From a virus: a DNA stretch of 41,316 bases. Shown here in pieces: positions 15,908 through 37,326 of this stretch; the first letter of the stretch is position 1, and each line of letters opens with the position of its first letter. Where the stretch lies: positions 1 through 41,316 of the IMG/VR virus record IMGVR_UViG_3300021138_000063; one strand, given 5' to 3'. Under the pieces are notes generated by a model. The model was given only the letters and a program-made list of their open reading frames with translations. It ran no database searches and was not told the DNA's origin. The position numbers were made by a program, and so were the translations under genes.

Positions 15908-18786
15908 TAGAGGGCGCTCGCAATCTTATCTAGAACTCCCTTAGAAGTTAATCTCTGTGACACGGCTCTAACTAACCTTTCAGTTTCTTCAATGCTTCCT
16001 TGAGCGATATGAACATTCATATCCAGCTTAATTGTAACATTAGACCTTGCGTTAAACGTTGCGCTACTTCCTGACGAGGAGTGCACAGATGGTGCATCCG
16101 GAGTAGTGCTAATGCCTAAACCTTCTGGGCCTCCACCTTGTCCAATATCGTGGGCAGCAGTCTGAGCTTCTTTAAGGTACTTGACAAAAGAACCGCTTGT
16201 GTAGGTAGACCAAGGATTAAAGTTACGTCCTTTGCTACTAATGGTATATCCAGCAGCAGCGTTAAAGCTAGGGTTACGAAGGCGAGAGCCGTCTCTATAA
16301 GGTTCGCTATATGCCTTCCAATCTTTAAGAGAACGAACCTGGAATAAACCATAGCTTGGACCCCACTTAGCATCTTGCAACTCTACATCGCCTACTGCTC
16401 CAGGACGTCCACTAGACTCTGCTAAAGTAATAGCAAAAGCTGTTTGCAAAGCTTTACCCGAGAATCCTTTAGCACTAAGGGTTCTCATTAACCCATCTTT
16501 ACCACCAGGAATCATCTTTTCATCCACCTGTGGTCCAGAAATACCGGCCATAATATCTGCAGCCTTGCTTGCTCCGACCTTCGTAACAAGATCAGAGTAT
16601 GTCATTGCCTTACCAGTAATTGAGTTGCTTAATAGAGACGAAATATCTGTAGATGCGTATTGACCAAGATTAGAGGTCCCATCAGTATTTAGGAAGTTAG
16701 AAAAACCATTAGATCCAGCTTGTGCTGCCTGATGTGATCCTACAGATGTACCTAGAGGTATAGTTGCTTGAGACGTACTTGCGCCAGTTAAGAAAGGCTT
16801 TGGATCAACCCTAACGCCCTTGCTATTCATAACTTCTAAGTGAAGGTGTGGACCTGTAGAGTCTCCAGCTCCAGGAGTTCCTGGCTTACCTCCAGAACGA
16901 CCAATAATTTGACCGGCTTTTACTTTTTGCTTTCTTGTAACCACAATAGCAGACAAGTGAGCATAGCGAGATGAATGATCTCCGTGGTCAATAACTACAT
17001 AATTACCCCAACCTCCACCTTGACCAACAGTAGCAACCACGCCATCTCTAATAGCATATACGGGACTTCCTTCGCTTACGCCAAAGTCAATACCGCTGTG
17101 CATACTGCGGCCACCGCCACGCTTACCAGGAACAGAAGGTGTTGGTCTCATTCCATAAGGAGAAGTAATTGGGGTAGATTTTGCTACAGGCAAGGTGTAC
17201 TTAGTAGGGGTTAGTAAACTCTTCTTACTTCCAGTACCTAAGTTACCGTGATCTGAAGAACCACCGTGAGCAGCACCCACAGCAAAGTCTTTTGCAATAG
17301 AGGCGTCTTGAGCCGCAACACCCGCTTCTTCAGCAACAACAGCTGGAGTAGCAGCTCCGCCACTAAATACTTCTTCTCCAGCAATGCCCGCTTCTTCAAC
17401 AGCTGTAGCGCCCAGCTTAAAAATGTCGCCAGGATTCTTAAGAACATTCTTAACTCCACCAAACAATCTGCCAAATAGAGATGGTGCTGCTGCTTTAAGT
17501 ACGCTCTTTTCAGCAGTCTTTGCTGCAGATTTTGCTACGTCCTCTTCTAAGACCTTGGATTCCTTACCAAACATCTTTTCTATGGACTTCATAAGCAGCT
17601 TATTATTTACGGCATTTACGCCTCCACCCAAAAGACCGCCGCCAAGTTGTGAAAGAACACTTGCAGGTCCGCTTGCTTGTGGGAATGTCTCAAGTATTCC
17701 CTTAAGCTTCATTAAACCCTTTGTAACACCTGGGAACTGTTCGGCCATCTTTGTAAGGCCTTCAGTAACGGCAGCAGAAGCGTTAGTTGCAGTATCGTAT
17801 CCAGATACTAACCCCTCTTGGGTAGCTCCAAGAAGTTTATTCTGAGCTGAGTTATTTCTAAAGTTAGCGGCAAAAGGATTGTCTTTGCCCATTCCACCCA
17901 TAATACCTAGGGTGGTATTAACATTGCTAAGATCTGATGCTGCTAAATTTGAGCCCTTTTTAGCACGAAGAACCATAGCATCTTGCAACACTGACATGAG
18001 TTGCTGATTGCCGCCTGCCAAAGCGCTTAAGCTTTCATAGCCGGTAGAGTTCTGGTTCATAAAGGTGCCCATAGCATCGCTGGCGTTCTTTACGTGCTTA
18101 CCCAAACGGTTATAGATAGCATTGATAATCGTTGTTGGGTTTTGCAAATCACCGTTAGCATCACGGATATCGCTACGCTTAATACCGCCACGAATCATAT
18201 TCATGCCGTTAATGCCGGCAAAAGCGCCAGCAGCTTGCTCGTTGCTCATTCCGGTCATGGCACTTAAGCCACCGACCTGACCCATAATTCTTTGAGAGGT
18301 TGCTGTGTTGGCCGCATAACCTTGGGAGGCAAGGGCAGCTTGAGCCATAACTGGGCTCATAGCACTTGTGGCTCCGCCGCCTGCCTGCTTGTTAGCCATA
18401 GCAATTGCTTGGTTAACACTCATGCCTGAGTAACCGGCATAGGTAGCTGCACCCATATACTGGGTGACAGCTGAGCCCACACTTGGTGCGGCCTGCATCA
18501 ACGCAGCACCGCCTGTAACAACGCCCATACCTAACGCACTGGCTGCAGACTTAGCAAAAGATCCTAAGCCAAGTTTGCTACCGCCGCCGCCATTATCGTT
18601 AATGGAGTTGGCAACCTTCTTTGCGTCTTCGCCTGCTTTGCCCATGAGGGAAGCAATCTTTTCAGCAATAGTCTCTACTTTTTCAAATAGCTTTAGGAAA
18701 GAGTCTTCAAACTCCTCATATTGCTTTTCTTTAATAGCAAAGTCGCCAAGACCGCCCTCTTGATCTTCTGGGCTAAACAGGTTCAT
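15907..18786 (-). CDS. Tape measure protein with M23 peptidase and lysozyme-like domains
   Basis: A 959-residue tape measure. Residues 1-510 are Ala/Gly/Met-rich and helical, with many GG and AAG segments, as in tail length rulers. An M23 zinc endopeptidase follows at about 535-665: H563-x3-D567, H610, and H647-x-H649 in GPHLHLE. A lytic-transglycosylase or lysozyme-like domain lies at about 765-875, with the candidate catalytic glutamate E790 (ITLAESSGRPG) and GPSYGLFQV at 809-817. Both should cut peptidoglycan during DNA injection. AAGGCGGTG precedes the ATG. The C-terminal 50 residues include a coiled-coil-like stretch. If about 0.15 nm per residue applies, the tail would be roughly 140 nm. 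Confidence 0.9.
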   Translation of the reverse strand: MNLFSPEDQEGGLGDFAIKEKQYEEFEDSFLKLFEKVETIAEKIASLMGKAGEDAKKVANSINDNGGGGSKLGLGSFAKSAASALGMGVVTGGAALMQAAPSVGSAVTQYMGAATYAGYSGMSVNQAIAMANKQAGGGATSAMSPVMAQAALASQGYAANTATSQRIMGQVGGLSAMTGMSNEQAAGAFAGINGMNMIRGGIKRSDIRDANGDLQNPTTIINAIYNRLGKHVKNASDAMGTFMNQNSTGYESLSALAGGNQQLMSVLQDAMVLRAKKGSNLAASDLSNVNTTLGIMGGMGKDNPFAANFRNNSAQNKLLGATQEGLVSGYDTATNASAAVTEGLTKMAEQFPGVTKGLMKLKGILETFPQASGPASVLSQLGGGLLGGGVNAVNNKLLMKSIEKMFGKESKVLEEDVAKSAAKTAEKSVLKAAAPSLFGRLFGGVKNVLKNPGDIFKLGATAVEEAGIAGEEVFSGGAATPAVVAEEAGVAAQDASIAKDFAVGAAHGGSSDHGNLGTGSKKSLLTPTKYTLPVAKSTPITSPYGMRPTPSVPGKRGGGRSMHSGIDFGVSEGSPVYAIRDGVVATVGQGGGWGNYVVIDHGDHSSRYAHLSAIVVTRKQKVKAGQIIGRSGGKPGTPGAGDSTGPHLHLEVMNSKGVRVDPKPFLTGASTSQATIPLGTSVGSHQAAQAGSNGFSNFLNTDGTSNLGQYASTDISSLLSNSITGKAMTYSDLVTKVGASKAADIMAGISGPQVDEKMIPGGKDGLMRTLSAKGFSGKALQTAFAITLAESSGRPGAVGDVELQDAKWGPSYGLFQVRSLKDWKAYSEPYRDGSRLRNPSFNAAAGYTISSKGRNFNPWSTYTSGSFVKYLKEAQTAAHDIGQGGGPEGLGISTTPDAPSVHSSSGSSATFNARSNVTIKLDMNVHIAQGSIEETERLVRAVSQRLTSKGVLDKIASAL

Positions 18787-24691: not shown

Positions 24692-25681
24692 TCACCTATT
24701 AAACTCTTTAGGGATGTACCCCTCTTTAAATGGCCCGTACTTAAGGTTGATCTTTGTGTACCTGCAGAACCGGTCAACCTTGGCCTTGTTAGCCGGATTA
24801 GTTACGTACTTTACCCAGTTGTCCCTAATACTGTTGTAGTACTGCTCATTAGGAAGTATCTTAGGGTTGGCTCCACTTACCCTGTAGGTTGGGTGCAGTA
24901 CTTGATCAAAGTCTGTATTATTTTGAAATAGATGAGATAGCGGAACGGTCATGTTTGGAAACACTAAAGAAAAACCAGCCTCTAGCAAACTCATAGTTTG
25001 AATGATCTCTTCTTCCCAAAAAATAGTGTCTATATCTAAGCCGGTATTACCAAAATAGTGCTTGTTAGAGAAGACAAACTGAGCGTTAAACTTAACAGCA
25101 GGTACATATAGATCGTCTGACCTGTACATGTGCGAATCAGGACCGGCCAACGGTTCGTCTTTCCAAGCAGGAATTCCTGTATTTACCCATGTCCTAAACA
25201 ACATGATGGGGTACTGGGCAAGCTTATCGTGCCTTAAAGGAACACGCTCACCGTTATCTAGATGTTTAAACCCAGGCAAATAAGCTGTCATAATTGTTTT
25301 TGGATTTTGAGTAGCTTCTAGGGCACCCTCGTACATCTTAATAAGCTTAGTATCCCAATTTCTTTCAAAGAGTGTATGGGAATCTACTTGAAGAATATAG
25401 TCTTCCCCATCATACATAGATAGGGCTTGATCTCGACCAAAACCAATAGACGGCTCATATTCTCCTACCTTAAACCTCTTAAACTTAACTTGGGAGAATT
25501 CAAGTAGCTTCTCAATCTTATCTTTATAGTAGAACTCATAGTCTACATTTGAATGGGCAGTCTCCATAAGAACAAGGCCTATAGTTAAGTCGTCTGGATT
25601 AGCGGCGCTTTGGATAGCCTCAAATACGGTAAAGGGAACCTGGTTATCATACATGGTTGGGATAGCAATATAGATAGACAT
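24692..25681 (-). CDS. GlcNAc-type glycosyltransferase
   Basis: A 329-residue GT-A fold glycosyltransferase. It begins MSIYIAIPTMYDNQ (nucleotide-binding strand), has GFGRDQALSMYDGEDYILQVDSH with the metal-binding D-S-H at D100-H102, and then FERNWD. This order (GR...a..Y.gE.y.LqxDSHx.F...WD) is the hallmark of the GlcNAc-transferase family related to Skp1-modifying enzymes (PF11397 type). It should transfer a sugar from a nucleotide donor in the cytoplasm, with phage structural proteins or host wall glycans as possible acceptors. AGAGGATTAAT precedes the start, one base after the stop of the mini-protein upstream. Confidence 0.85.
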   Translation of the reverse strand: MSIYIAIPTMYDNQVPFTVFEAIQSAANPDDLTIGLVLMETAHSNVDYEFYYKDKIEKLLEFSQVKFKRFKVGEYEPSIGFGRDQALSMYDGEDYILQVDSHTLFERNWDTKLIKMYEGALEATQNPKTIMTAYLPGFKHLDNGERVPLRHDKLAQYPIMLFRTWVNTGIPAWKDEPLAGPDSHMYRSDDLYVPAVKFNAQFVFSNKHYFGNTGLDIDTIFWEEEIIQTMSLLEAGFSLVFPNMTVPLSHLFQNNTDFDQVLHPTYRVSGANPKILPNEQYYNSIRDNWVKYVTNPANKAKVDRFCRYTKINLKYGPFKEGYIPKEFNR

Positions 25682-25682
25682 A

Positions 25683-25844
25683 TTAATCCTCTAGGTCTAC
25701 AAAGGTTGGATTATTTAAAAACAGGGACGCCAATCTAGCACTGTTTACTGCAAAGACTTCTACAATCTCTCCGTCTATTACTATACCTAGACGTATAGAC
25801 CTTACCTCAGCAACTGGCTCGGCTTCCTTTTTCTTTTTAAACAT
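25683..25844 (-). CDS. 53-residue mini-protein, shortest of three paralogues
   Basis: A frame from ATG 25844-25842 (or the adjacent ATG at 25847) to TAA 25685-25683. After a basic MFKKKKEAEP start comes a hairpin-like core, IRLGIVIDGEIVEVFAVN, then FLNNPTFVDLED. This core is shared with the proteins at 31877-32263 (LAIVLDGIVVDVMNVQ) and 32973-33308 (VAMVINGVVHTVFNLD), each followed by a (N/G)P(T/S)F motif. It overlaps or abuts the upstream TGA. The function is unknown, but the constant pairing with the protein upstream suggests they act together. Confidence 0.8.
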   Translation of the reverse strand: MFKKKKEAEPVAEVRSIRLGIVIDGEIVEVFAVNSARLASLFLNNPTFVDLED

Positions 25845-26527
25845 CATGAATACTCCTTTGGCTTACGCCATAGTTTTTTATACACACCTGTTGCAGAACG
25901 AAGATAGCTACTTCTTTCTACTTGATGGTCCGTTTCAGTGTAGTCTTGGACGGATACCCACTTATCTCTTTTAATAGGGATTAGCTGGGCAATGGGTGTT
26001 CCTGCAGGTATTGTACCTGTCCAACCCTCTCTTATGAAAAAGGGTACGTTACCCCAACCAGTAAACTCTTCGCTGTCAACAATCCCAGACATAGTAGTGA
26101 AAGGTAGGTCAAATCTATTTATTGGGTGCGTTAAAAGTGCGCTATATCCTGGAGGAACTTTCCAACCCCATTGACAGTTCCATGCAAGGTGGTTGTGGGC
26201 ATGTCCGGCAGGACGTGGGATAGTATGGCCTGTCAAACCAAGGCGTTCGGTTAGCACCGGAAAGCCTGTCTCTTCCCAGCTTAGTTTAGATCTACCCTCT
26301 TCGTCTAAAGTTACTTCTACATCAACGGGGGTAACCAACATATAACCAGAAATCATGGCGTCTAGAAAAGGTACACAGACTTTTAAGCCGTCGTATTTGA
26401 CGCCATGCTTATCATAGTAATGACGCTCAGCATTTTTATACCAGTCTGGGACTTCGCTCTTTGCTGGTACTGGCGGTTTATGTTCTTTTTTTACACCAGG
26501 ACTAGGTACAAACCTAAAGACCTTCAT
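25844..26527 (-). CDS. Conserved phage protein of unknown function, paralogue A
   Basis: A 227-residue protein paralogous to the one at 32263-32955. Shared blocks are MKVxRFVP at the start, P-x-W-Y near residue 28, a WGWK-x-P-x-G segment, THPxNRxDLPFxTMS, and IREGWTGTIPAGTPxxQxIPxKR near the end. The last block, with its turn-rich I-P-A-G-T-P, recalls jelly-roll or dUTPase-like strands but I cannot name the fold. It follows the Tyr-rich lectin-like gene with a strong GGAGGAG site. The paralogue follows the other Tyr-rich lectin-like gene, so the context is duplicated too. Confidence 0.8.
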   Translation of the reverse strand: MKVFRFVPSPGVKKEHKPPVPAKSEVPDWYKNAERHYYDKHGVKYDGLKVCVPFLDAMISGYMLVTPVDVEVTLDEEGRSKLSWEETGFPVLTERLGLTGHTIPRPAGHAHNHLAWNCQWGWKVPPGYSALLTHPINRFDLPFTTMSGIVDSEEFTGWGNVPFFIREGWTGTIPAGTPIAQLIPIKRDKWVSVQDYTETDHQVERSSYLRSATGVYKKLWRKPKEYS

Positions 26528-26546: not shown

Positions 26547-27815
26547 TTAACCTGTGATCGTGGCCGTAAAGTAACCTAAGGTACTTCCCTGAGCTTGATC
26601 CGACGTAGTCAAAATTATACCAGCTTTTGTTGCGGTAGGAGAACTGCCTAAAGTGGTTGTGGCGGTGCCTACGCTAGTGGTTTGTGAATTATCGCTAAAC
26701 GCTGTGGCGGTAACTGAAGTACCATGAACTACAACCTTTAGAGAAGCTAAAATACCACTTAGGGTGGTGGTGGCAAGCGTGGAAACTGTTCCGGCCACTG
26801 ATTGGTAAATTTTAAGCAAATACTGGATGTTCGTAGTTGTGGCAGACCCTGTTGCTGTATAGGTAGAGGGAACCGTGTAGCTGTCTGTAGACGAGTAGGT
26901 TCCGGAATAGTATGGAGAGTAATTTGTGTAGGATCCTAGTGAACTATAAGAGGTGTAAGTTTGTGCTGTATATGGGGTGCTTACATCGCCAGTATGAGCT
27001 ACAGCGTTGTTATATGAGGTGTAGGTTGGTTGAACATACGTGCTGTAGGTACCGTATTGAACTACATACCGCTGTGTACCGGCATATTGTCCGCCACCTA
27101 TGTAACTATATGGTGCTCCGTATGCACCTGGGTTTGCAATGTAATACTGGTAAGTTCCATGATCCCAAAAACCTGCAGTAGCATACTGATAATGGGTGGA
27201 GTATACGTATGCTCCGTCCCAAGAATAGTTGGTTCCTGAAACATAGTTTCCTGTACCTTGATAAACAGTAGAGTAGTAGTAAGTGGTTCCGCTTGCATAA
27301 TAACCTAGTGGTGTACCTGAGGTATATGGGGTGGCGTAGGTGTATGGGGCTGTATATGTGTACGGGGCAGTATAAGAATATGAGTACGTAAAGTAAGTAT
27401 CGCTCTCAACACCCACAGCAGCAAGCCAGTTATTAGAGTCTGTTACTAAGAATGATATGCCAGAACCTAAGCTTACGTTTTGAGCGGTAGCGGTTACGTT
27501 CGGGTTACCCATATCCGTAGCAGCAATAGGGTATGTAGATGGGCTAGTAGCAGTTGTAGCCACGCCGTTATTAGAGGACCAGATGCCAGAGATGGCGTTC
27601 CATACTCCGCCGCTAGAAGATGTCCCTAACGAACCAGAGGTAAGTCTTGCAAAAGTATCAGCAAATTGTCCAGTAAACCACTGATGCCAAACGCCACCAA
27701 TTTTAACCCAACCAGATGTTACAGAGTGCCAGCTTTGAATACCGCCGGTTGTCACCTTAGTTAGAATACTACCAGCTGTACGCCAAACCCCGCCTACTTT
27801 GACTTGACCACTCAT
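26547..27815 (-). CDS. Lectin-like fibre protein with Tyr-rich insertion (paralogue A)
   Basis: A 422-residue protein. Residues 1-50 hold two short Trp repeats (VGGVWRTAGSIL, IGGVWHQWF). Residues about 51-140 and 325-422 form the two halves of a ConA-like jelly roll: FADTFARLTSGSLGTSSSGGVW, then VTDSNNW, and later LLKIYQSVAGTVSTLA and GIILTTSDQAQG. A 180-residue insertion at 141-320 splits the domain. It has about 44 Tyr with Ser, Thr, Gly and Ala, no Cys, and few charges. The same split domain occurs in the protein at 33320-35023. It is probably a fibre tip with the insertion exposed for receptor binding. It starts by sharing a base with the upstream TAA (TAATG). Confidence 0.75.
   Translation of the reverse strand: MSGQVKVGGVWRTAGSILTKVTTGGIQSWHSVTSGWVKIGGVWHQWFTGQFADTFARLTSGSLGTSSSGGVWNAISGIWSSNNGVATTATSPSTYPIAATDMGNPNVTATAQNVSLGSGISFLVTDSNNWLAAVGVESDTYFTYSYSYTAPYTYTAPYTYATPYTSGTPLGYYASGTTYYYSTVYQGTGNYVSGTNYSWDGAYVYSTHYQYATAGFWDHGTYQYYIANPGAYGAPYSYIGGGQYAGTQRYVVQYGTYSTYVQPTYTSYNNAVAHTGDVSTPYTAQTYTSYSSLGSYTNYSPYYSGTYSSTDSYTVPSTYTATGSATTTNIQYLLKIYQSVAGTVSTLATTTLSGILASLKVVVHGTSVTATAFSDNSQTTSVGTATTTLGSSPTATKAGIILTTSDQAQGSTLGYFTATITG
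26856..27395 (-). repeat. Tyr-rich low-complexity coding stretch, paralogue A
   Basis: These codons encode residues 141-320 of the lectin-like protein. On the minus strand TAT/TAC, ACN, TCN and GGN codons alternate in short irregular units such as TAPYTYTAPYTYATPYTS. Roughly one residue in four is Tyr. It is a coding repeat, not an intergenic element. Confidence 0.85.
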
Positions 27816-28750
27816 TATACATACACCAACCAGACGTCGCCTTCAATGCCTTGTCCAGAGGTTGGGGTAGAAGTGCTTACCCACGTATTGCGTACCACGT
27901 TAGAAGATGCTGTTACTGTAGATGCTGTTGTGACTGATCCGTTAGTCTGAGAGACGTATGAGGTTGTAGGTGTCTGCCAAGCAGGTAGGCCAGCAACCAC
28001 TGTAAGAACTTGTCCGGTAGATCCGATACCCAAGCGTGTGTTTCCGCTGCTATAGGTTAGAAGGTCGCCGTTTGTTGTCAAAGTGCTTGTAGGAAGATAT
28101 GAAGGTAGAGTAGACCAGGTTGGGATACCCCCAGAAACGGTCAGATACTGCCCTGTAGAACCAATACCTATGCGGCCTACAGTAGATGACCCAGTACCGT
28201 AGATAAGGTCTCCAGCGGTCGTTACAGTCGAAAGAGGGACCTTTGTAGCGATGGAGTTAGGCAGGGTTGTTGTAATAGATGTGTTTAGGGAGTTGTAGTC
28301 AGTGCTGCCCACATAGAGAACGTTGCTTCCGCTTACCTGTGGAATACCCAAATAGCTTAAGGTAAACCCTGCTGTAGTAAGAAGGTTATTGGTTCCAGAA
28401 CCAGTAGTTAGGGTGAGACCCACACCGCCAGCAGAACTGGTAAGGATGGTGCTGCCGCCAGTTTTAGATACATACGGAGCGTTACCTACGCCATAGATCA
28501 GACCGTTTTCAATGTTTGCAAGACGCTGAGCTAGGGTAGTCCAGGATGTTGTACCTGTGCTAAAAGCTGTAGATGATGTGAAGTTAGATACAAGAACGCC
28601 GCCTGCAAAGCCGTCAGAAGGAACTCCGAGGCCTGTCTCAATAGCTCTGACTTCTTGCTGCAGAGAGTTTACGTCATTAGCTACAACAGTATCCTGAAGA
28701 TCTACACGAGCTGTGTAGGGATAGACTGCACTAGGAAAACCGACTGTCAT
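27815..28750 (-). CDS. Tail fibre protein with GSTGQ repeats
   Basis: A 311-residue protein rich in Thr, Ser, Gly and Val. The N-terminus (PYTARVDLQDTVVANDVNSL, then QEVRAIETGLG) is a short coiled-coil-like attachment region common in phage fibres. The shaft holds a repeat, TTAGDLIYGTGSSTVGRIG / TTNGDLLTYSSGNTRLGIG, each followed by IGSTGQxLTVxxGxPxW (near 185-215 and 226-256). The C-terminus ends GIEGDVWLVYV, as in trimeric fibre shafts. It is translationally coupled to the Tyr-rich lectin-like protein downstream, so the two may form shaft and tip. AAGGAG precedes the ATG. Confidence 0.8.
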   Translation of the reverse strand: MTVGFPSAVYPYTARVDLQDTVVANDVNSLQQEVRAIETGLGVPSDGFAGGVLVSNFTSSTAFSTGTTSWTTLAQRLANIENGLIYGVGNAPYVSKTGGSTILTSSAGGVGLTLTTGSGTNNLLTTAGFTLSYLGIPQVSGSNVLYVGSTDYNSLNTSITTTLPNSIATKVPLSTVTTAGDLIYGTGSSTVGRIGIGSTGQYLTVSGGIPTWSTLPSYLPTSTLTTNGDLLTYSSGNTRLGIGSTGQVLTVVAGLPAWQTPTTSYVSQTNGSVTTASTVTASSNVVRNTWVSTSTPTSGQGIEGDVWLVYV

Positions 28751-28806: not shown

Positions 28807-29241
28807 CTAGCCAACTAGGTACTTGGTGCAGACCCCGTAGATACCCTCAAAGATACTTAAATCTGTAGGCTCAGTAAGTACCACTATTGACTTGTTTGTC
28901 AAAGCCCTACCAGGGTAAGTCCAGATATATCCGTTACTTGTCAGGGTGTGGTCGTCATTCTGGTGCCAGAAGAACCTGGCATCCGGGATGTTGTTAGAAA
29001 AATAGCCAAGGGCTTCTATGTTCTTGCAGTGGAACCAGGTTTTATCTTTAATAGAGTTGATAAACTCCTCGTCAATCTGGTAGAAGGGTTCGTCATGTCC
29101 TAGGAACATACCTTCCGGATTCATCCAGACATCAACCTCTACGTCATAGCCTTGGGCAATAGCAGAGACTACGTCAACAGGATTGTTCTCCCCGTCCTTG
29201 TTTTCTCCCCTAATCAAACCTCTATGGGCAATCTTAAGCAT
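28807..29241 (-). CDS. Minimal GDPD-like phosphodiesterase
   Basis: A 144-residue protein with the glycerophosphodiester phosphodiesterase core: H6-R7 (AHRG), E35-x-D37 (VEVDVW) and H49-D50 (LGHDEP). These are the metal-binding and catalytic residues of that TIM-barrel family. The length is only about 60% of a normal GDPD barrel, with no later conserved strands evident, so it is a cut-down or divergent form. It overlaps the stop of the HAD-nucleotidyltransferase gene by eight bases. It could act on glycerophosphate groups of host teichoic acids or lipids, or on a phage glycan; that is inference. Confidence 0.75.
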   Translation of the reverse strand: MLKIAHRGLIRGENKDGENNPVDVVSAIAQGYDVEVDVWMNPEGMFLGHDEPFYQIDEEFINSIKDKTWFHCKNIEALGYFSNNIPDARFFWHQNDDHTLTSNGYIWTYPGRALTNKSIVVLTEPTDLSIFEGIYGVCTKYLVG

Positions 29242-30595
29242 TGTTACTCCTAAGGTAGTTGTTTAGATCCTCTGGAGTTCCCACTCCCCACATCTTATTA
29301 ACATGCATAGCATATACACGCTTCCCATCATTAATAGCTTCATTAAATACTGGGGCGGTATAGAACTCTCCGTTAACTGTGATGTTCTTTTCCATCATCT
29401 GCTCAGCGTACTTAACAAAGTCTGAGCCATGCTTCCAATAGTAAATGCCCACAGTTGCATGATTGCTAATAGGCTTCTTCTCAGCAACTTCTAAAACAAG
29501 GCCTGTATCAGATGCGATTCTTGCATAAGACCACTTAGGGTGGGTAGAGGTGAATGTTGCAATGCCGGCATCAGCATTCTTTACGTTCATATGATACATA
29601 AAGTCTCTGCTGTCCCAGTCAACGATTTGATCTGAGTTAGCTATGATCAGAGGCTCATCATTATTAATAAGCTCTCTTGCAAGTAAACAGGTCTGGGCCG
29701 CACCGCCTGTAAGCACTGGGGTGCTGATCAAATGGCATCCAGGGGTGATCTTGTCTAGCATGAACATCAAGTTGTATTTTTCTACATGCTCCTGCATAGA
29801 AACATAGATGTAGTTTGCCTCTATACCAAGGCTCTCTACTACACGCTCGATCATAGGCTTACCGTTAACTTCAATAAGAGGTTTAGGGAAGCTATAGCCA
29901 GCATCCGCAAAACGACTCCCTAGTCCTGCCATTGGGATCAAAACATTCATCTTCTTATCCCTAAATGAAGAGGCTTTAGATAGGTGCTCTAGAGCAAGAT
30001 CAATCTTTTCTTTAGTAAGATCTTCCCTATTCTTAATCTCAATAAGATGAGCCCCACTATCCCTAGCAGCAAGTTTTCCAACAAAGCTGTCTTCAAAGAT
30101 AACAACATTTGTTGGAACAGTCTTGAAATAGTTCATGATAGACCAATACATTTCTGGGTGGGGCTTAGAGTTTGCAACTCCGCCATTAGATATGGCTACA
30201 TCCACGTATGGAAGTATCCCCAGTTTATCTAGGCAGGTCTCTACAGTCTTGGAAATACTGTTACTGGCAACGCCGATACCAATGCCCTTTGATGCAATGT
30301 ACTTAAAGTGCTCTACAAGATCCCTATCTTCTACTACGTTCTCAAACATCTCTGCAGTGTACTTTTGCTTAAGTTCCCAAATTACTGGGTGCAGCTCTTG
30401 AACAAGCCCCTTACTCTCAGAGAGAATAAACAGCTTCTCCTTAGTAGGCAACCCCTCATATATATTCTTGTGGTCAAAAGTACTAATTACAAGCTCAGGA
30501 GAAACATCTTCCAACGCCATATTCAGAGCGGTAAAATGAATGTCCTTGCTGTCAATCAAGACCCCATCAAGATCAAAGATTATAACTTTTTTCAT
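29234..30595 (-). CDS. HAD phosphatase fused to sugar nucleotidyltransferase
   Basis: A 453-residue bifunctional protein. The N-terminal half is a HAD hydrolase of the phosphoglycolate phosphatase/phosphomutase group: nucleophile motif FDLDG (D8, D10), a Ser-Asn motif at about 111-112 (ASNS), Lys in NSKPHPEM (about 144) and EDS (168-170). The C-terminal half is a nucleotidyltransferase: MNVLIPMAGLGSRF (216-229), then FPKPLIEVNGKPMI (236-249). It would dephosphorylate one sugar or polyol phosphate and activate another with NTP. The ATG at 30595 overlaps the upstream TGA by four bases (ATGA); a start at 30607 is possible. It likely feeds the glycosyltransferases nearby. Confidence 0.87.
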   Translation of the reverse strand: MKKVIIFDLDGVLIDSKDIHFTALNMALEDVSPELVISTFDHKNIYEGLPTKEKLFILSESKGLVQELHPVIWELKQKYTAEMFENVVEDRDLVEHFKYIASKGIGIGVASNSISKTVETCLDKLGILPYVDVAISNGGVANSKPHPEMYWSIMNYFKTVPTNVVIFEDSFVGKLAARDSGAHLIEIKNREDLTKEKIDLALEHLSKASSFRDKKMNVLIPMAGLGSRFADAGYSFPKPLIEVNGKPMIERVVESLGIEANYIYVSMQEHVEKYNLMFMLDKITPGCHLISTPVLTGGAAQTCLLARELINNDEPLIIANSDQIVDWDSRDFMYHMNVKNADAGIATFTSTHPKWSYARIASDTGLVLEVAEKKPISNHATVGIYYWKHGSDFVKYAEQMMEKNITVNGEFYTAPVFNEAINDGKRVYAMHVNKMWGVGTPEDLNNYLRSNNA

Positions 30596-31599
30596 GCTGA
30601 TAACCACGCTTTCAAGAAAGGATCGTTTTCAATAGTATTAATTACCTCGTCCGAACTTCTATTTAGATTAGGAATAGAGACGTAGCGGTGACCCAATCTT
30701 GCGGCCATTAAGTGATAGAAGTGGTGCATCTCTTCTGTGCCTACAGAGGCAGGCTCAGTAACACCGTTACCAACACTAGTAAAAGAAATAAGCGGAGTAG
30801 TCAGCTCAAGCACGGCAGACCCAGGCGGCATAAATGCAGCGTTTACAAGACCAGAGCTAGTTGTTGATGCTACCAACTTAGCCTTGCTAAAGTAGCTGAT
30901 CTGTGATTCAAAGGTCTTAAATTCATCGGGGGCTACAATATCAAACCCTAAAGATGCAAAGTAGTTCTCTACCTTGCCTTCATCATCCATGCGGTCATCA
31001 TCCTCATATGGAAGCCGCCCTTTGATCAGAGCTTTAAGGGACCTGCCCTTGTAATTCTTTCTAGTTAGGTAGACTTTCTTACCATCTGCCACGTTTACAT
31101 CCGGGGTAATGAACTGCTTAGACATTTCGTGGATCTTTGGCCAAGGGTTGTTTACCTCATACGACTCTACTAACAGGTCTCTAAAATAGAGGTTATTGAT
31201 GTTGAACTTATTTATGACCCTAAGATCTACCGGCGCATAGTCTACGCCGTTCTTATTAAGGAACTTAAAGAAGTTCTGAATGTAGGTTGGAAGCGGATCT
31301 CTATCTACAACCCCAGTGATATCAATAATAAACAGGGCATCTGGAGTTAAAGCGTATTGAGCTAAAAACTCACCTAGATCCTCATGCATAAAGTGGTAGA
31401 AAGATCCCCCCAGATAAACAAATACCTTCATCTGGTCTGAGATGAAGTCTTTTACATGCTTCTCTTTCTTTCCAAACTTTGGGTGAACCTGAAACATGTT
31501 GATATTGTTGCTTGCAACCAGACCTACTTCCTCTGGAGCAAAGCGGTAAGACGTTTGATATGACGTATGATTGAGCGTAGTGGTGCTAGTAGACTTCAT
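30592..31599 (-). CDS. GT61-like glycosyltransferase (DUF563 type)
   Basis: A 335-residue protein. The C-terminal half matches GT61/DUF563: KKVYLTRKNYKGRSL, then VENYFASLGFDIVAPDEF, ISYFSKAKLVASTTSSGLVN and AAFMPPGSAVLELTTP, the usual order around the catalytic pocket. GT61 enzymes commonly transfer pentoses or other sugars to glycans. It lies upstream of the HAD-nucleotidyltransferase gene and overlaps it by four bases, so the donor-making and donor-using enzymes are probably made together. GAGGGAT precedes the ATG. The acceptor is unknown. Confidence 0.82.
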   Translation of the reverse strand: MKSTSTTTLNHTSYQTSYRFAPEEVGLVASNNINMFQVHPKFGKKEKHVKDFISDQMKVFVYLGGSFYHFMHEDLGEFLAQYALTPDALFIIDITGVVDRDPLPTYIQNFFKFLNKNGVDYAPVDLRVINKFNINNLYFRDLLVESYEVNNPWPKIHEMSKQFITPDVNVADGKKVYLTRKNYKGRSLKALIKGRLPYEDDDRMDDEGKVENYFASLGFDIVAPDEFKTFESQISYFSKAKLVASTTSSGLVNAAFMPPGSAVLELTTPLISFTSVGNGVTEPASVGTEEMHHFYHLMAARLGHRYVSIPNLNRSSDEVINTIENDPFLKAWLSA

Positions 31600-31877: not shown

Positions 31878-32263
31878 TATTGTGATCCACGCCTTGTAAC
31901 TCCGTGGATGCCAAATGGTTCAAACTTGCCATCTTTATGGACAGATCCAACAGGAGGGCGTGGGTCTCCATCATTAATCTTAACAAATGATGGTCCCTTT
32001 AAAAGAAGTTCGCTAAAACCCTTTTGAACGTTCATAACATCTACTACGATACCATCTAAAACGATAGCCAAGGATACGACTTCTACTCCGGCAGGAGGCT
32101 CGTTTACCGCACATTCTGGGCCATGAACATGTTCTGCAGGGGCATGCTGATGATCGTGGTCATGTTTTTTAGCTGCACGCTTTCCCTTTAAGTACTTAAC
32201 AAACTCTTTAGTACTCATAGGCCTTACTTCTGGAACATCGTAGTTCCTAATAACCTTATCCAT
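31877..32263 (-). CDS. His-rich mini-domain protein, second paralogue
   Basis: A 128-residue protein. Residues 32-51 (KKHDHDHQHAPAEHVHGPEC) contain six His and one Cys in 18 residues, a likely metal-binding stretch. Then comes the hairpin core shared with two other proteins here, LAIVLDGIVVDVMNVQ, followed by KGPSFVKI and PRPPVGSVHKDGKFEP. The end of the paralogue at 32973-33308 (DPGFLYTDGAFTPP) resembles this last stretch. Its ATG shares a base with the upstream TAA. The His-rich insertion is absent from the paralogues, so it is an addition in this copy. Confidence 0.75.
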   Translation of the reverse strand: MDKVIRNYDVPEVRPMSTKEFVKYLKGKRAAKKHDHDHQHAPAEHVHGPECAVNEPPAGVEVVSLAIVLDGIVVDVMNVQKGFSELLLKGPSFVKINDGDPRPPVGSVHKDGKFEPFGIHGVTRRGSQ

Positions 32264-32955
32264 TACTCGTAATCCTTCTTAACCCACTCGACGTTTTTAT
32301 ACTTATACTGCTCAACACGTACGTTTACAGACTTAACTCTTCCAAGAGCAGTCAAACCAACATCTACAAAAGATCTCCATGAAGCTCTTTTAACGGGTAT
32401 GATTTGTACAAAAGGTGTGCCAGCAGGAATAGTACCTGTCCAGCCTTCCCTTATATGAAAAGGAATGTTGCCATTAGTAAAGAATTTGTCGCTGTCAATA
32501 GTAGCAGACATAGTTCTAAATGGAAGATCGCTTCTGTTAAATGGGTGGGTAACAATAGTGCTCCAACCACGTGGTGTTTTCCAACCCCACTTAGAAGACC
32601 ATATCAAATGGTTCTTGCTGTGACCGGCAGGCACAGGGATTGTGGCTCCAATAGCACTAGGGCGTTCACCAACAAAGCCTTGCCATGCATCTGGCCCATC
32701 CCACCTTATATTCATTTTTCCGTCTTCATCACGGGTGACGTGGATGTCAAAAGGTATAAGGAGAAAATACCCGCCGATCATCACATCAATAAAGGGCTTG
32801 CAGGTCTTTAAGCCCGGATTGTTATTCCCGTTTTCATCAACCCAGTGATACTCGCCATCTCTATACCATTGAGGTACGTACTTTTTACACGGCTCTGGCT
32901 CAAGGAGCATGAGCTCTTTATCTTCAATTTCTGGAACAAATCGTATTACTTTCAT
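32263..32955 (-). CDS. Conserved phage protein of unknown function, paralogue B
   Basis: A 230-residue protein paralogous to the one at 25844-26527. It starts MKVIRFVPEIEDKEL and keeps P-Q-W-Y, SKWGWKTPRGWS, THPFNRSDLPFRTMS, and the 17-residue HIREGWTGTIPAGTPFV. Outside these blocks the two have diverged strongly, so the duplication is old. It is followed by the His-rich paralogue and preceded by the third hairpin paralogue, a richer version of the arrangement around copy A. GGGAGGG precedes the ATG. No catalytic motif is recognised. Confidence 0.8.
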   Translation of the reverse strand: MKVIRFVPEIEDKELMLLEPEPCKKYVPQWYRDGEYHWVDENGNNNPGLKTCKPFIDVMIGGYFLLIPFDIHVTRDEDGKMNIRWDGPDAWQGFVGERPSAIGATIPVPAGHSKNHLIWSSKWGWKTPRGWSTIVTHPFNRSDLPFRTMSATIDSDKFFTNGNIPFHIREGWTGTIPAGTPFVQIIPVKRASWRSFVDVGLTALGRVKSVNVRVEQYKYKNVEWVKKDYE

Positions 32956-32972: not shown

Positions 32973-33308
32973 CTATGCTTGTGGTTCTGGAGCTACCGAT
33001 GGTGTTGCAGGTACCTCTTGTGGAGTAGACGCTACTGGTGCAGCGTTTTGTGGGTTTGCAGGAATAGCATCAACGGCAGGCGGTGGTGTGAAAGCCCCAT
33101 CAGTGTATAAAAATCCTGGGTCAACATAAAGTGTCTTAGGGATTTGAATAAATGTAGGGTTTGAAAGGTAGCGTGCTGCGTCTGTGGTATCTAGATTAAA
33201 AACAGTGTGAACAACCCCGTTAATAACCATTGCAACCCTATAACGACCTGATGTCTCAGGTGGTGTTGGCACAACAAGGGGTGGAACTGGTAGCAAATCG
33301 TCAGCCAT
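32973..33308 (-). CDS. Hairpin-core protein, third paralogue
   Basis: A 111-residue protein with a Pro/Val-rich start (PVPPLVVPTPPETSG), the shared hairpin core VAMVINGVVHTVFNLD, LSNPTFIQI, and DPGFLYTDGAFTPP, then a Pro/Ala-rich tail (PANPQNAAPVASTPQEVPAT). The Pro/Ala tail may be an extended linker. It lies 12 bases after the Cys/Tyr-rich lectin-like gene and 17 bases before paralogue B, with AAGGAGAT before its ATG. A structural or fibre-associated role is likely by context only. Confidence 0.7.
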   Translation of the reverse strand: MADDLLPVPPLVVPTPPETSGRYRVAMVINGVVHTVFNLDTTDAARYLSNPTFIQIPKTLYVDPGFLYTDGAFTPPPAVDAIPANPQNAAPVASTPQEVPATPSVAPEPQA

Positions 33309-33319
33309 GTATTATCTCC

Positions 33320-35023
33320 TTAGTTTGACTGGGAATTGAAGTCGTCTAGTTGATTACCTTGAACGTAATCAGAAGGTCCTAGGACGATTCCAAACTTAGT
33401 GGCTATTGTAGCACCTGTTGCTGTATATGTGAGGTCGGAACCTATTTGGGTGGTCAAAGCGGTATTTGAGTATGGGCGGATGGTAATAACCTTAGTTACA
33501 GCATTGGTAATTACCTTAAACGCTGCAGCAAGCTGGGATAGGCTCCAACGGGTAATCTCAGATACAACGTTACTTGAGGACTGGATAAGGCGAATATATC
33601 CAGGGAAACAGGTCTGGCAGTTACAGGAGGTATAGCCATATTGAGGGGAAGAGCAGTATGGGGCATAGGTGGCGTAGTAAACGGTACATACTGGGCCATA
33701 GTAGTTATTAGTAAAAGAGTTGCAGTTAGGGCCAGAATAGCTTGAAATTCCGTAGTTGGCGTTTGGTCCAGAGTAGGAATTAGCTCCATATCCGCCACAG
33801 TTAGGGCCAGAATAGCTTGATACGCTATATACCTGGTGAGTTCCATAGCTTGATACACCGTATGAGCTACAAGTAGAGCCTGCATAAGCTGAGCAGCTGG
33901 AGCCTGAAGTAGAGTAGCTTGAACAGCTGTAATAAGTGCTGAAAGACAAGCAGCCAGAAGAATAGCTAGCGCATGGGTGCCCACTCACGGCATAGCTAGT
34001 GCAATCTGGAGCGCGGATGTAGTAGCTTCCACCTTTATAGTAAACGTTTCCGTAGGCTAAACAGGAGTAGGAGGTTCCATAGGATGCACAAGATCCTGAA
34101 TAGTATGAGCTACAAGAAGATCCGGAAGAGTATCCACTACATCCATAGTTGTTAGCGTAGGCTACACATGATGGAGTATAAGAAGCACATGCGTAGGTGG
34201 AGTAGTATGCGTAGTTTGAATTATAGTTGGTTGCATAAGAGTAGCCTCCAGTACAGCCGTATCCAGATACAGCATATGAATAGCTTACAACTCCATAGTT
34301 GGTTGCATAAGAGTAGCCACCGGTACATGATGCACTGCTATAGTAGGCGTAGTTTCCGCAATAAGTTCCGGTTACATATGGGGTATACGCAGCACAAGAG
34401 TAGGTTGCACAGGTGGAGCAGTTACAGGAAGTATTGGTTGAGCGACCATAAGTTACTCCCCACCAGTTGCCCGAATCAGTAACCCACATAGCAACACCAG
34501 CACCACCATCGTTATTGCGGGTGGCCACGTTAGTAATGCTACCTGTAGTTGGGGCTGAAGAGGCCTGAACCTCAAGAGTGATCTGGCTAGAGCTATCTAC
34601 CGAAACAATCTGAATATCAGTATCTGTTCCAAGAGATCCAGTTCCAGGTGTAGCTGAGATCCATTGACCTGCGCCAAGACCTGCTGTGGAGCTAAGTCCG
34701 GTAACAACAACGGTATACCCACTAGTTGTTGGGGTTACGGTTGAGATTGTTCCAGAAGCAGAGAATACAAAGGTAGAGCCCACAGAAATTGAAGAGGTAT
34801 TGCTTTGGGAGGTCATGTTTACGTCAGCAAGTGGGTATGAAGATGCTGCTGTGGCAGTAGTAGCAGAATATCCGTTGGCGCTCCAAACGCCACGCTCTGC
34901 TTTCCAAGCACCGCCTGAGCTAGATGTTCCTAGCGAACCTGAAGTGGTTCTATTGAAGTTATCCGAAAAGGAGGCAAAAGCCGTTTGGATAAAGTTCATT
35001 AACCCTTGAAAAATACCAGACAT
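33320..35023 (-). CDS. Lectin-like fibre protein with Tyr/Ser/Cys-rich insertion (paralogue B)
   Basis: A 567-residue protein built like paralogue A. The ConA-like domain is in two halves: FSDNFNRTTSGSLGTSSSGG (19-38) to MWVTDSGNWWGVTYGR (179-194), then GYIRLIQSSSNVVSEI onward (475-567). The insertion spans about 200-472, has about 55 Tyr and all 26 Cys of the protein, and is bracketed by C-N-C-S-T-C (200-205) and C-N-C-Q-T-C (467-472). A roughly 80-residue strand-rich piece near 85-165 (STVTPTTSGYTVVVTGL) is missing from copy A. It shares a base of its start with the TAA of the long fibre upstream. It is probably a fibre tip with a disulfide- or metal-clamped surface. Confidence 0.75.
   Translation of the reverse strand: MSGIFQGLMNFIQTAFASFSDNFNRTTSGSLGTSSSGGAWKAERGVWSANGYSATTATAASSYPLADVNMTSQSNTSSISVGSTFVFSASGTISTVTPTTSGYTVVVTGLSSTAGLGAGQWISATPGTGSLGTDTDIQIVSVDSSSQITLEVQASSAPTTGSITNVATRNNDGGAGVAMWVTDSGNWWGVTYGRSTNTSCNCSTCATYSCAAYTPYVTGTYCGNYAYYSSASCTGGYSYATNYGVVSYSYAVSGYGCTGGYSYATNYNSNYAYYSTYACASYTPSCVAYANNYGCSGYSSGSSCSSYYSGSCASYGTSYSCLAYGNVYYKGGSYYIRAPDCTSYAVSGHPCASYSSGCLSFSTYYSCSSYSTSGSSCSAYAGSTCSSYGVSSYGTHQVYSVSSYSGPNCGGYGANSYSGPNANYGISSYSGPNCNSFTNNYYGPVCTVYYATYAPYCSSPQYGYTSCNCQTCFPGYIRLIQSSSNVVSEITRWSLSQLAAAFKVITNAVTKVITIRPYSNTALTTQIGSDLTYTATGATIATKFGIVLGPSDYVQGNQLDDFNSQSN
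33608..34426 (-). repeat. Tyr/Ser/Cys-rich coding repeat region, paralogue B
   Basis: These codons encode residues 200-472 of the lectin-like protein. Exact DNA repeats are visible: a 22-bp copy at 34225-34246 and 34297-34318 (72 bp apart, in frame, encoding GGYSYATNY) and a 23-bp copy at 33723-33745 and 33798-33820 (75 bp apart, in frame, encoding SSYSGPNC). All spacings are multiples of three, so recombination between copies would keep the frame. Confidence 0.85.
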
Positions 35024-37326
35024 TACGTAAGCCCATTTCCACTAATCATCCAAGTAGTTGCAGCAACTTTTAAGAGAGTTGCCATTCCGTATGGTGCTAA
35101 GGTTCTAGACCCTGTAGCCCCGGTTCCTGCTTGCATTAGTATATCAGATGTGATAGAAACCGTCACAGTCACGCTAGAAGCTGCTACCAAGGCTATAGAC
35201 GTGCCTACAGGAAAGGCGACCGATGCATTTGCTGGAACGGTAAGTGTGCAGTTTGCGTTAAAGTAGATGTGCTTTCCAGCATCGCTGGCTATTAAGGTAT
35301 ATGTTGATCCCACTGCTGGCTGTAAATTTTGAGGCATTCCTGTATAGCCAAGACCAGAGGCGGCGCTTGTAACAGATGCTGCCGTAGGCACAACGCCAGT
35401 AGATAGAGAGCCTGCCGCAATATTTGCTGCAGGGAATGATCCCGAGGTAATAGTGCCTACAGTAGTGATAGAAGAAGATCCGGCAATAGGTGAGTATGTA
35501 GAGGCAGCAGTACCGGTGGTTAGGTATGTAGATGAGTCTAGAGAGCCATCTCCCTTAACAAACTGTGAAGATGTACCGCCACTGGTTATGTGAGAGGTTG
35601 CAGTTACAGATGTTAATCCAGAGAGTGTTAGGGTAGTTCCGCCCAATGAAACAGAGGTTGTACCCAACGTAATAGATGAGTTGGTAAGGCTTGAGTTAGC
35701 AATGTTGGTAAGGGTGTTAGAAGACCCAGAGATTGCCTTATTTGTAAGAGTCTGGGTGGCGTCAATAGTGGCAATATCGCCCCCTGTCGTTCCACCTGGG
35801 GTGCGACCTAGAACCTGTGTAGGGGTAAGAACTGTGGTTCCAGCAATATGGTAGGTTTTACCGGATGCAAGATCAAAGTGCTCAGATGAAAGCCATGAAC
35901 TGGTTGAAGACTGCCATTGAAGAGTTTTGTTAGTGGTACCGTATAGAAGCATACCTCCACCATTTGCGGTGGAATCAGAAGGTGTAGCAACCTTGCCAAT
36001 TTCTATATTCTTATCTTGAACCAGTAGGGTAGAAGAGTTGATAGTTTCGGTTGTTCCGGTAACGGTAAGGTTACCGTTAATGGTTACGGTACTGTTAGTG
36101 TTACCAATATTGATTGTGTTGGCACCGGTTCCAACAGCGGCAATGTTTACCGTACCTGTAGTAATACCGGCACCGATAGCAAGGGCTCCAGTTGTTACGT
36201 TAGGAAACAGGGTTGCTGTAGTTCCGGTTGCAGATGCTGCGTTAATGTTATCAATTACCGGTACAGTTAAGGTCTTATTTGTAAGGGTCTGGACGCCGGT
36301 TAGTGTTGCAACAGTAGAGTCAATAGCTACGGTTACAGCACCAGAACCGTCATAGGATGAGCCGCTAAGGCCTGTGCCTATTGTAAGAGCATTTGGATTG
36401 ACCGCTTTAATTGTAATATCGGCAGAGCCATCAAACGAAACGCTGTTAATCAAACGAGCAGTTTGCAGCTTAGTTGCGGTAGCTGCATTGCCATCAATGC
36501 TAACACCGGTTAGAGATTGAGAAGCAGACGCACGGTTTAAGGCAATAGATGTAGTACCGATATAGTGCGTAGAGTTGCCTAATACAGTTGAGGGAATAGT
36601 TCCAGTAAGATTACCCGCTGTTAGGTTGGTTAGATTGGCTCCAGATACGGCACCAAACAAGCCTGACCAAGTACCAGTAGTGATGGTTCCGGTAGTGGTC
36701 AGTGACGAGGATCCAGCAATAGGGGAGTAAGTAGATGCCGCTGTTCCTGTAGTTAAATATGTGCTTGAATCTAGGGTTCCATCACCCTTAACAAACTGAC
36801 TTGATGTGCCGCCAGAAGTTATAAATTTTGGAGCTGTAAGATTTCCTGTAAAAGTATTGTCTACACCGAGCCGTGGAACAACAGTAGTATCAATAGCCAA
36901 TGTTCCGGAAGAGGTTATTGTTCCTCCAGTAAGACCAGTACCTGCAGTGATAGAGGTTACTGTTCCGCTACCGCCAACAGAGGCCCACTGTAACCCAGAA
37001 CCTGTAGATTGAAGTACTTGACCTGACGTACCGGTTGTTCCTCCAGCAGAGATTTTAGGTACGCTTAAAACACCGGCATCCGTAAGGTTGAAGATGTTTG
37101 CGCTATAGGCATCGTTGATGATCTGAAGATCACCTGTGCTGTTAACACGAAAGTTTTTGCTAGGGTTGGTGGCACCCGAGTAGGTGTTAGTAACGATGAG
37201 AAAATCATGATACCCGGTACCACCACGATTTGCATAACCTACTAGCTGTAAAGCCTGACTAATACCTGTCGTATTAATGACAAGCGTACCTGCTACGTTA
37301 GCCGAGGATAAGAAAGCCCTTGTCAC
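35023..37326 (-). CDS. Long tail fibre protein with repeated shaft modules
   Basis: A 767-residue fibre rich in Thr, Ser, Gly and Ala. It starts from GTG at 37326, with AGAGG upstream. It has GTVTSITAGTGLTGGTITSS, a common phage fibre shaft motif, near 121-140, and two copies of a module, ITSGGTSSQFVKGDG followed by LDSSTYLTTGTAASTYSPIAGSSS (near 169 and 580). Two LTNKxLxxPVI/LTNKAISGSS segments mark further repeats. The last 100 residues resemble a jelly-roll-like cap (YTLIASDAGKHIYFNANCT). It is coupled to the Cys/Tyr-rich lectin-like gene by a shared base, so the two may form shaft and tip. Confidence 0.85.
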   Translation of the reverse strand: MTRAFLSSANVAGTLVINTTGISQALQLVGYANRGGTGYHDFLIVTNTYSGATNPSKNFRVNSTGDLQIINDAYSANIFNLTDAGVLSVPKISAGGTTGTSGQVLQSTGSGLQWASVGGSGTVTSITAGTGLTGGTITSSGTLAIDTTVVPRLGVDNTFTGNLTAPKFITSGGTSSQFVKGDGTLDSSTYLTTGTAASTYSPIAGSSSLTTTGTITTGTWSGLFGAVSGANLTNLTAGNLTGTIPSTVLGNSTHYIGTTSIALNRASASQSLTGVSIDGNAATATKLQTARLINSVSFDGSADITIKAVNPNALTIGTGLSGSSYDGSGAVTVAIDSTVATLTGVQTLTNKTLTVPVIDNINAASATGTTATLFPNVTTGALAIGAGITTGTVNIAAVGTGANTINIGNTNSTVTINGNLTVTGTTETINSSTLLVQDKNIEIGKVATPSDSTANGGGMLLYGTTNKTLQWQSSTSSWLSSEHFDLASGKTYHIAGTTVLTPTQVLGRTPGGTTGGDIATIDATQTLTNKAISGSSNTLTNIANSSLTNSSITLGTTSVSLGGTTLTLSGLTSVTATSHITSGGTSSQFVKGDGSLDSSTYLTTGTAASTYSPIAGSSSITTVGTITSGSFPAANIAAGSLSTGVVPTAASVTSAASGLGYTGMPQNLQPAVGSTYTLIASDAGKHIYFNANCTLTVPANASVAFPVGTSIALVAASSVTVTVSITSDILMQAGTGATGSRTLAPYGMATLLKVAATTWMISGNGLT

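Follow-up and report, generated by a model that had tools for sequence, protein, structure and literature searches.

Why would one phage encode two proteins that resemble each other at both ends and differ entirely in the middle? The question is raised by a 41,316-nucleotide stretch of viral DNA (IMG/VR record IMGVR_UViG_3300021138_000063, positions 1 to 41,316; hereafter the window), in which the original prediction described a second copy of a lectin-like protein split by a loop. We call this second copy A and its counterpart B. The position of the A reading frame, its length of 422 residues and its Tyr-rich, Cys-free insert at residues 141-320 (44 Tyr) were all as predicted, and the gene lies on the minus strand. 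Cys is absent from the whole of A, and each of the 26 Cys of B is inside the loop. The two genes and their parts are as follows.

26547..27815, minus strand: protein A, 422 aa, scaffold of lectin/CBM type, loop rich in Tyr and free of Cys (ORF, alignments, AlphaFold2 model)
27411..27665, minus strand: N-terminal half of the A sandwich, residues 51-135 (homology to B and the family N-flank HMM)
26826..27410, minus strand: A loop, residues 136-330, Cys-free, with a Tyr period of about 6 (residue counts, Tyr lag analysis, DNA tandem unit)
26550..26825, minus strand: C-terminal half of the A sandwich, residues 331-422 (flank profiles, alignment)
33320..35023, minus strand: protein B, 567 aa, paralogous to A in its scaffold, loop rich in Cys and Tyr (ORF, alignments)
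34448..34969, minus strand: N-terminal half of the B sandwich, broken by a second insert (flank alignment)
34529..34798, minus strand: the second insert, a module within the N flank of B, about residues 76-165 (~90 residues), not present in A (alignments)
33602..34447, minus strand: B loop, 26 Cys with palindromic spacing (Cys-spacing test, residue counts)
33323..33601, minus strand: C-terminal half of the B sandwich (flank alignment)

With the loops masked, the flanks of the two proteins proved homologous. The N-flank alignment, from which the second insert of B was excluded, scored 215 against 40 ± 8 for shuffled sequences (z 22.6), and the C flanks scored 112 against 34 ± 6.5 (z 11.9). The loops themselves gave 128 against 120 ± 13 (z 0.6); both are Tyr-rich, and their alignment is at the level of composition. 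The insertion site is common to the two proteins, the loop starting a few residues past the VTDSxNW block and the chain re-entering before the strand YLLKIYQS in A or YIRLIQSS in B. Neither flanks of separate origin nor differing sites were found, and the original prediction of one scaffold carrying unrelated loops at one position stands for this pair. With 34% identity between them, A and B are, to judge from the alignments, old and diverged paralogues. The second insert of B, which the earlier description had not mentioned, is unrelated to the main loop. No third copy of the scaffold was found in two relatives of ~93-100 kb (E<=1).

The genes surrounding A and B also correspond.

35023..37326, minus strand: tail-fibre-like gene immediately upstream of B and overlapping it at the end (phrog_1833, tail fiber)
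27815..28750, minus strand: fibre-like gene immediately upstream of A and overlapping it at the end (phrog_23837, virion structural protein)
32973..33308, minus strand: small conserved protein downstream of B (relatives' profile, E 3.7e-15)
32263..32955, minus strand: DUF6065-like protein of the B cassette (relatives' profile, E 1.5e-87)
25844..26527, minus strand: DUF6065-like protein of the A cassette (relatives' profile, E 7.6e-86; the match to Pfam PF19541 falls below the cut-off)
1999-2382, outside both gene groups: WhiB-like gene, which suggests that the host is an actinobacterium

Gene order and profile matches indicate that a fibre / adhesin / DUF6065-like cassette occurs twice in the window. 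At family loci with room downstream, the small protein was present in 80 of 123 cases and the DUF6065-like gene in 72 of 123. The two DUF6065-like genes of the window are paralogous, one behind each adhesin. Glycosyltransferase-type genes lie between and beside the cassettes (GlcNAc-type at 24692-25681, GT61-type at 30592-31599), with a HAD plus nucleotidyltransferase gene at 29234-30607; the products of these three genes may act on the virion or on the loops. Elsewhere in the window, 15907-18786 encodes a 959-aa protein with a stretch resembling a peptidase M23 domain, by our reading perhaps the tape measure. Thioredoxin was considered as a general partner and rejected: it was present in 6 of 17 contigs and was not found in two close relatives.

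Viral contig scans and flank profiles brought together 139 distinct proteins with both flanks, mostly from actinobacteriophages. WhiB, a regulator of actinobacteria, was found in 26 of the 34 family contigs tested, and among the control genomes it matched only in Corynebacterium. Inserts at the shared site run from 15 residues (L227) to 415 (L237) and may be Cys-rich, Tyr-rich, both or neither. That the scaffold accepts very different loops at a single site is strongly supported by this collection of sequences. The original prediction had gone further and proposed interchangeable loops, and here it held in part: very different loops do occupy one site across the 139 homologues, but a clean whole-loop swap between near-identical scaffolds was not caught among the family comparisons. 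At the lower extreme of loop length, L026:8001-10064 (the same in L227-L229) encodes a near-empty loop of 15 aa and a long C-terminal tail with poly-Pro stretches and Cys-rich segments; the L227 protein, with its nearly empty site and Pro/Cys-rich tail, is 688 residues long.

Neither A nor B was assigned to a Pfam or PHROGs family. AlphaFold2 predicted a confident beta-sandwich both for A (sandwich pLDDT mostly >90) and for the relative L188. When AlphaFold2 models were superposed with VIA-align, the best fold match of the scaffold was CBM66 (Z 17.1 over 148 residues, rmsd 2.4 Å, 13% identity), and high scores were also obtained with the central-fibre tip (gp20) of mycobacteriophage Douge (Z 17.0) and with the receptor-binding domain of TM4 gp23 (Z 15.3). 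The L188 model matched residues 115-310 of a Douge baseplate chain (Z 16.2), which is the range that PMC13033339 gives for BppU-CBM. The scaffold is therefore predicted to be a two-sheet jelly-roll sandwich of ConA/CBM66 type. In that study, Douge CFP-tip-CTD and BppU-CBM bound mycobacterial glycan fragments. A fold match by itself shows no function, and we infer from the models that A and B may bind glycans.

Searches by sequence gave a different outcome from the superpositions. Family profiles run against PDB chains found no Douge/TM4-type relative at E<=1 and returned chance-level matches only; among these, the hits to alphavirus E1, the strongest of them with an E of 0.015, fell mostly in low-complexity loop columns and were rejected as chance. 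There was no match in a tblastn search of 50,697 phage records and no relative on any contig in two bacterial genome scans, and searches of the open-access literature returned no description of the adhesin family or of DUF6065. The scaffold is of a known kind; the arm that we propose below is undescribed as far as open-access searches reach.

We consider it probable, taking the proposal as a whole, that A and B are paralogous receptor-binding proteins (adhesins) of a tailed actinobacteriophage, with a CBM66/lectin-like body, a hairpin arm and, in B, nested disulfides. Each sandwich is probably fixed to the fibre encoded by the gene directly upstream. The chain would leave the body between two adjacent sandwich strands as a long arm and then return, the outgoing and returning chains pairing with one another. 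In B, the two chains would be joined by nested disulfides, formed after the particle exits the reducing cell, while A would rely, instead of Cys, on a beta-ribbon base and on Tyr recurring every ~6 residues. The tip and surface of the arm would contact host-surface glycans or other receptors. Arms would diversify on the conserved body through repeat gain and loss and through recombination, and two such adhesins would give one phage two binding options.

The number of Cys per loop is the most regular property of the family. All 124 Cys-containing loops, or 49 of 49 clusters at 40% loop identity, have an even Cys count, a tally that includes loops fetched after the rule had been noticed. Among other ORFs of the same contigs with at least four Cys, 69% are even, and loop residues other than Cys follow no even-number rule. 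Given ~70% even controls, a cautious estimate of the probability of such parity by chance is ~0.7^49 rather than 0.5^124. Where the whole-protein total is odd, the extra Cys is not a loop residue and in most cases belongs to the leader that precedes the sandwich. The B loop, with its 26 Cys, follows the rule; the A loop has no Cys, and parity is thus inapplicable to it. The simplest reading of these counts is complete disulfide pairing. The Cys might instead bind a metal, zinc or iron-sulfur, and the CNCxTC motifs at either end of the loop in the B class would suit such a site. However, many loops have counts of 2 mod 4 (6, 10, 14, 18, 22, 26), a pattern at odds with four-Cys metal sites, and Cys disappear in nested pairs, as described below; we regard metal binding as very improbable.

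The order of the gaps between Cys suggests how disulfides could be arranged. In the first family set, gaps mirrored about the loop centre were correlated at 0.51, against 0.115 ± 0.038 after shuffling. In B, the gaps read 2, 3, 5, 12, 11, 24, 22, 7, 9, 9, 8, 9, then 20 at the centre, then 10, 7, 9, 10, 8, 24, 25, 12, 11, 10, 2, 3, a palindrome with p ~2e-5. At p<0.05, 26 of 68 loops are palindromic, B belonging to this large class, in a test in which loops of constant spacing cannot score. Read as nested pairs, the B spacing would join residues 200-472, 202-469, 205-467, 210-457, 222-446, 233-434, 257-409, 279-385, 286-377, 295-367, 304-358, 312-351 and 321-341. Homologues of B shift matched spacings on both sides: 46/50 in L003, 24+22/24+25 in B itself and 34/35 in L006. 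Between close pairs of proteins, a Cys was lost together with its nested partner 24 times against 6.6 expected, related pairs not being independent in this count. Symmetry is also visible in two 4-Cys loops, L213:3968-4870 and L238:2652-3581, with mirrored distances of 40, 19, 40 and 46, 19, 43; the two arms of L238 also have a similar peptide unit, YAGQSAIPPVA, in common.

Even counts would also follow from full pairing of any topology, and the loops could be compact, small disulfide-rich knobs with local pairing. Parity is universal in the family and palindromic spacing is not: as a set, the later-fetched loops gave a mirror correlation of 0.03 against a null of 0.114 ± 0.086, that is, no signal, so at least one class must pair its Cys another way. 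Moreover, in short loops with CPSGG...C units, the Cys pairs that were lost are not nested partners. Local pairing would nonetheless hardly produce the palindromic spacing and matched spacing changes of B and its relatives, nor the division of Cys in the split genes described next, and we think it unlikely, if worth keeping in mind, that knobs are the general answer.

In two contigs (L047/L333 and L058/L334), the adhesin gene is broken at what would be the arm tip (L047:7890-8980, L058:6905-7929). At the break a stop codon is followed by GGGAAAGG, a ribosome-binding-like stretch, then by an ATG and the second half of the gene. Each half carries 10 loop Cys, with mirrored gaps, and it is this 10+10 division that is hard to obtain by local pairing. 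Between the two contigs, the first halves differ at ~41 synonymous and 13 nonsynonymous positions (pN/pS ~0.1) and the second halves at 16 and 1 (pN/pS ~0.02); with so few nonsynonymous differences, both halves look translated and constrained by purifying selection. An adhesin of this lineage would need to be assembled from two chains, brought together by the sandwich and by the pairing of the arms.

For the arm of A, which has no Cys to pair, the model of the protein offers a different starting point.

27360..27431, minus strand: strand 1 of the predicted A beta-ribbon base, residues 129-152 (AlphaFold2 model, DSSP)
26796..26867, minus strand: strand 2 of the predicted A beta-ribbon base, residues 317-340 (AlphaFold2 model, DSSP)

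The two strands have 24 residues each, and in the register, taken from the secondary-structure table rather than from coordinates, the residue numbers of facing positions sum to a constant 469, which fits an antiparallel ribbon prolonging a sandwich hairpin. Past this base, AlphaFold2 leaves the arms of A and of a Cys-rich member unfolded, with pLDDT 20-40 (25-40 in A). Cys-free loops occur in A, in its relative in L003/L187 and in the L143/L160/L116 group. Tyr recurs in such loops every 6-7 residues (z 4.1 at lag 6 in A, z 8.1 at lag 7 in L245), the period being weaker or absent in some of them, and it is similar to the interval of 7 residues that separates Cys in some ladder loops. Mirror symmetry of Tyr gave no signal in the Cys-free loops, which makes the arm of A the least supported part of the model: that it forms a hairpin is suggested by the predicted base and by the homology of the site.

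The low pLDDT of the loops, their Ser/Thr/Tyr-rich composition and the GT61 and GlcNAc-type transferase genes of the window would all fit a simpler idea, namely that the loops serve as decorations of low complexity and, for the most part, no structure, for example glycosyltransferase substrates, in which any sequence is tolerated and which have no role in recognition. Strict Cys parity, palindromic spacing and Tyr periodicity, however, bespeak structural constraint, and the split gene has pN/pS values well under 1 on either side of its break. We judge this explanation improbable and retain the paired arm as our preferred reading.

How do the arms come to differ so much? In most close pairs, the loops diverge far faster than the flanks. 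Between L213 and L238, identity is 0.97 in the N flank, 0.55 in the loop and 0.94 in the C flank, and dS rises from 0.19 in the N flank to 1.26 in the loop, a value that misalignment of repeats can inflate; for several loops, synonymous saturation left dN/dS without an estimate. The excess of loop divergence extends to synonymous sites, which points to exchange or import together with repeat turnover, not to point mutation alone. Short tandem DNA units are present inside both loops of the window (27340-27374 in A, 34090-34141 in B). Compared with its L003/L187 relative, the A gene shows an identity of 1.00 over codons 1-45, 0.5-0.7 over codons ~46-121 and mostly 0.8-1.0 thereafter. This single sharp tract is best described as flank recombination ending near the loop base, not as a loop swap.

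A diversity-generating retroelement that mutates the loops would be another source of variation, and two features recall such systems: a variable region rich in Tyr, Asn, Ser and Cys on a phage lectin-like domain, and an Mtd_N domain on the upstream fibre in two relatives. A reverse transcriptase was rejected as the mechanism, since none of 22 contigs, two relatives of 93-100 kb included, had a PF00078 match that passed the family cut-off, in records that may be incomplete. Furthermore, the loops vary in length, in repeats and at synonymous sites, and the variable part is internal and placed on a ConA-type sandwich. This explanation is already largely refuted, and we hold it to be the most improbable of those considered.

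Host recognition by the phages of freshwater actinobacteria is little known; both the bacteria and their phages are abundant. A broader formulation, which we offer tentatively as a real possibility, is that freshwater actinobacteriophages have a retroelement-free adhesin system consisting of a sandwich and an exchangeable arm of up to ~400 residues, zipped by nested disulfides or, in the Cys-free members, by Tyr repeats, which would act as a rigid, fast-evolving probe and would be made of two chains in one lineage. If the arm model is true, a large unannotated family uses a single fixed scaffold, and no diversity-generating retroelement, to make binding surfaces that are hypervariable; disulfide topology could be read from sequence through the symmetry of the spacing; and phage adhesins, proteins made in a reducing cytoplasm, would contain extensive disulfides.

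Among known systems, the predicted scaffold superposes on the Douge gp20 tip and BppU-CBM and on TM4 gp23 (Z 15-17), which belong to the adsorption apparatus of actinobacteriophages. The comparison draws on the fold match and on the fibre-gene neighbourhood of A and B, known here from genes and models. Unlike members of our family, these domains are not described with a long Cys/Tyr-rich insert in the accessible part of the published account, and they have no detectable sequence homology to the family. CBM66, a carbohydrate-binding module of Bacillus subtilis, shares the scaffold fold but is a bacterial enzyme module of 161 residues with no arm. Mtd of Bordetella phage, a retroelement adhesin, likewise determines phage tropism and varies on a scaffold that stays fixed, and the Mtd_N-type fibres mentioned above lie upstream in two relatives; our family differs in having no reverse transcriptase in the 22 contigs searched, another predicted fold, and variation of length and repeats in an internal insert. 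An arrangement that would work alike is found in an unrelated protein. In bovine antibodies with an ultralong CDR H3, a beta-sandwich bears a Tyr-rich beta-ribbon stalk and a Cys-paired hypervariable tip at one hairpin; in the B class, by comparison, pairing seems to run along the entire arm, and A would build its arm without Cys.
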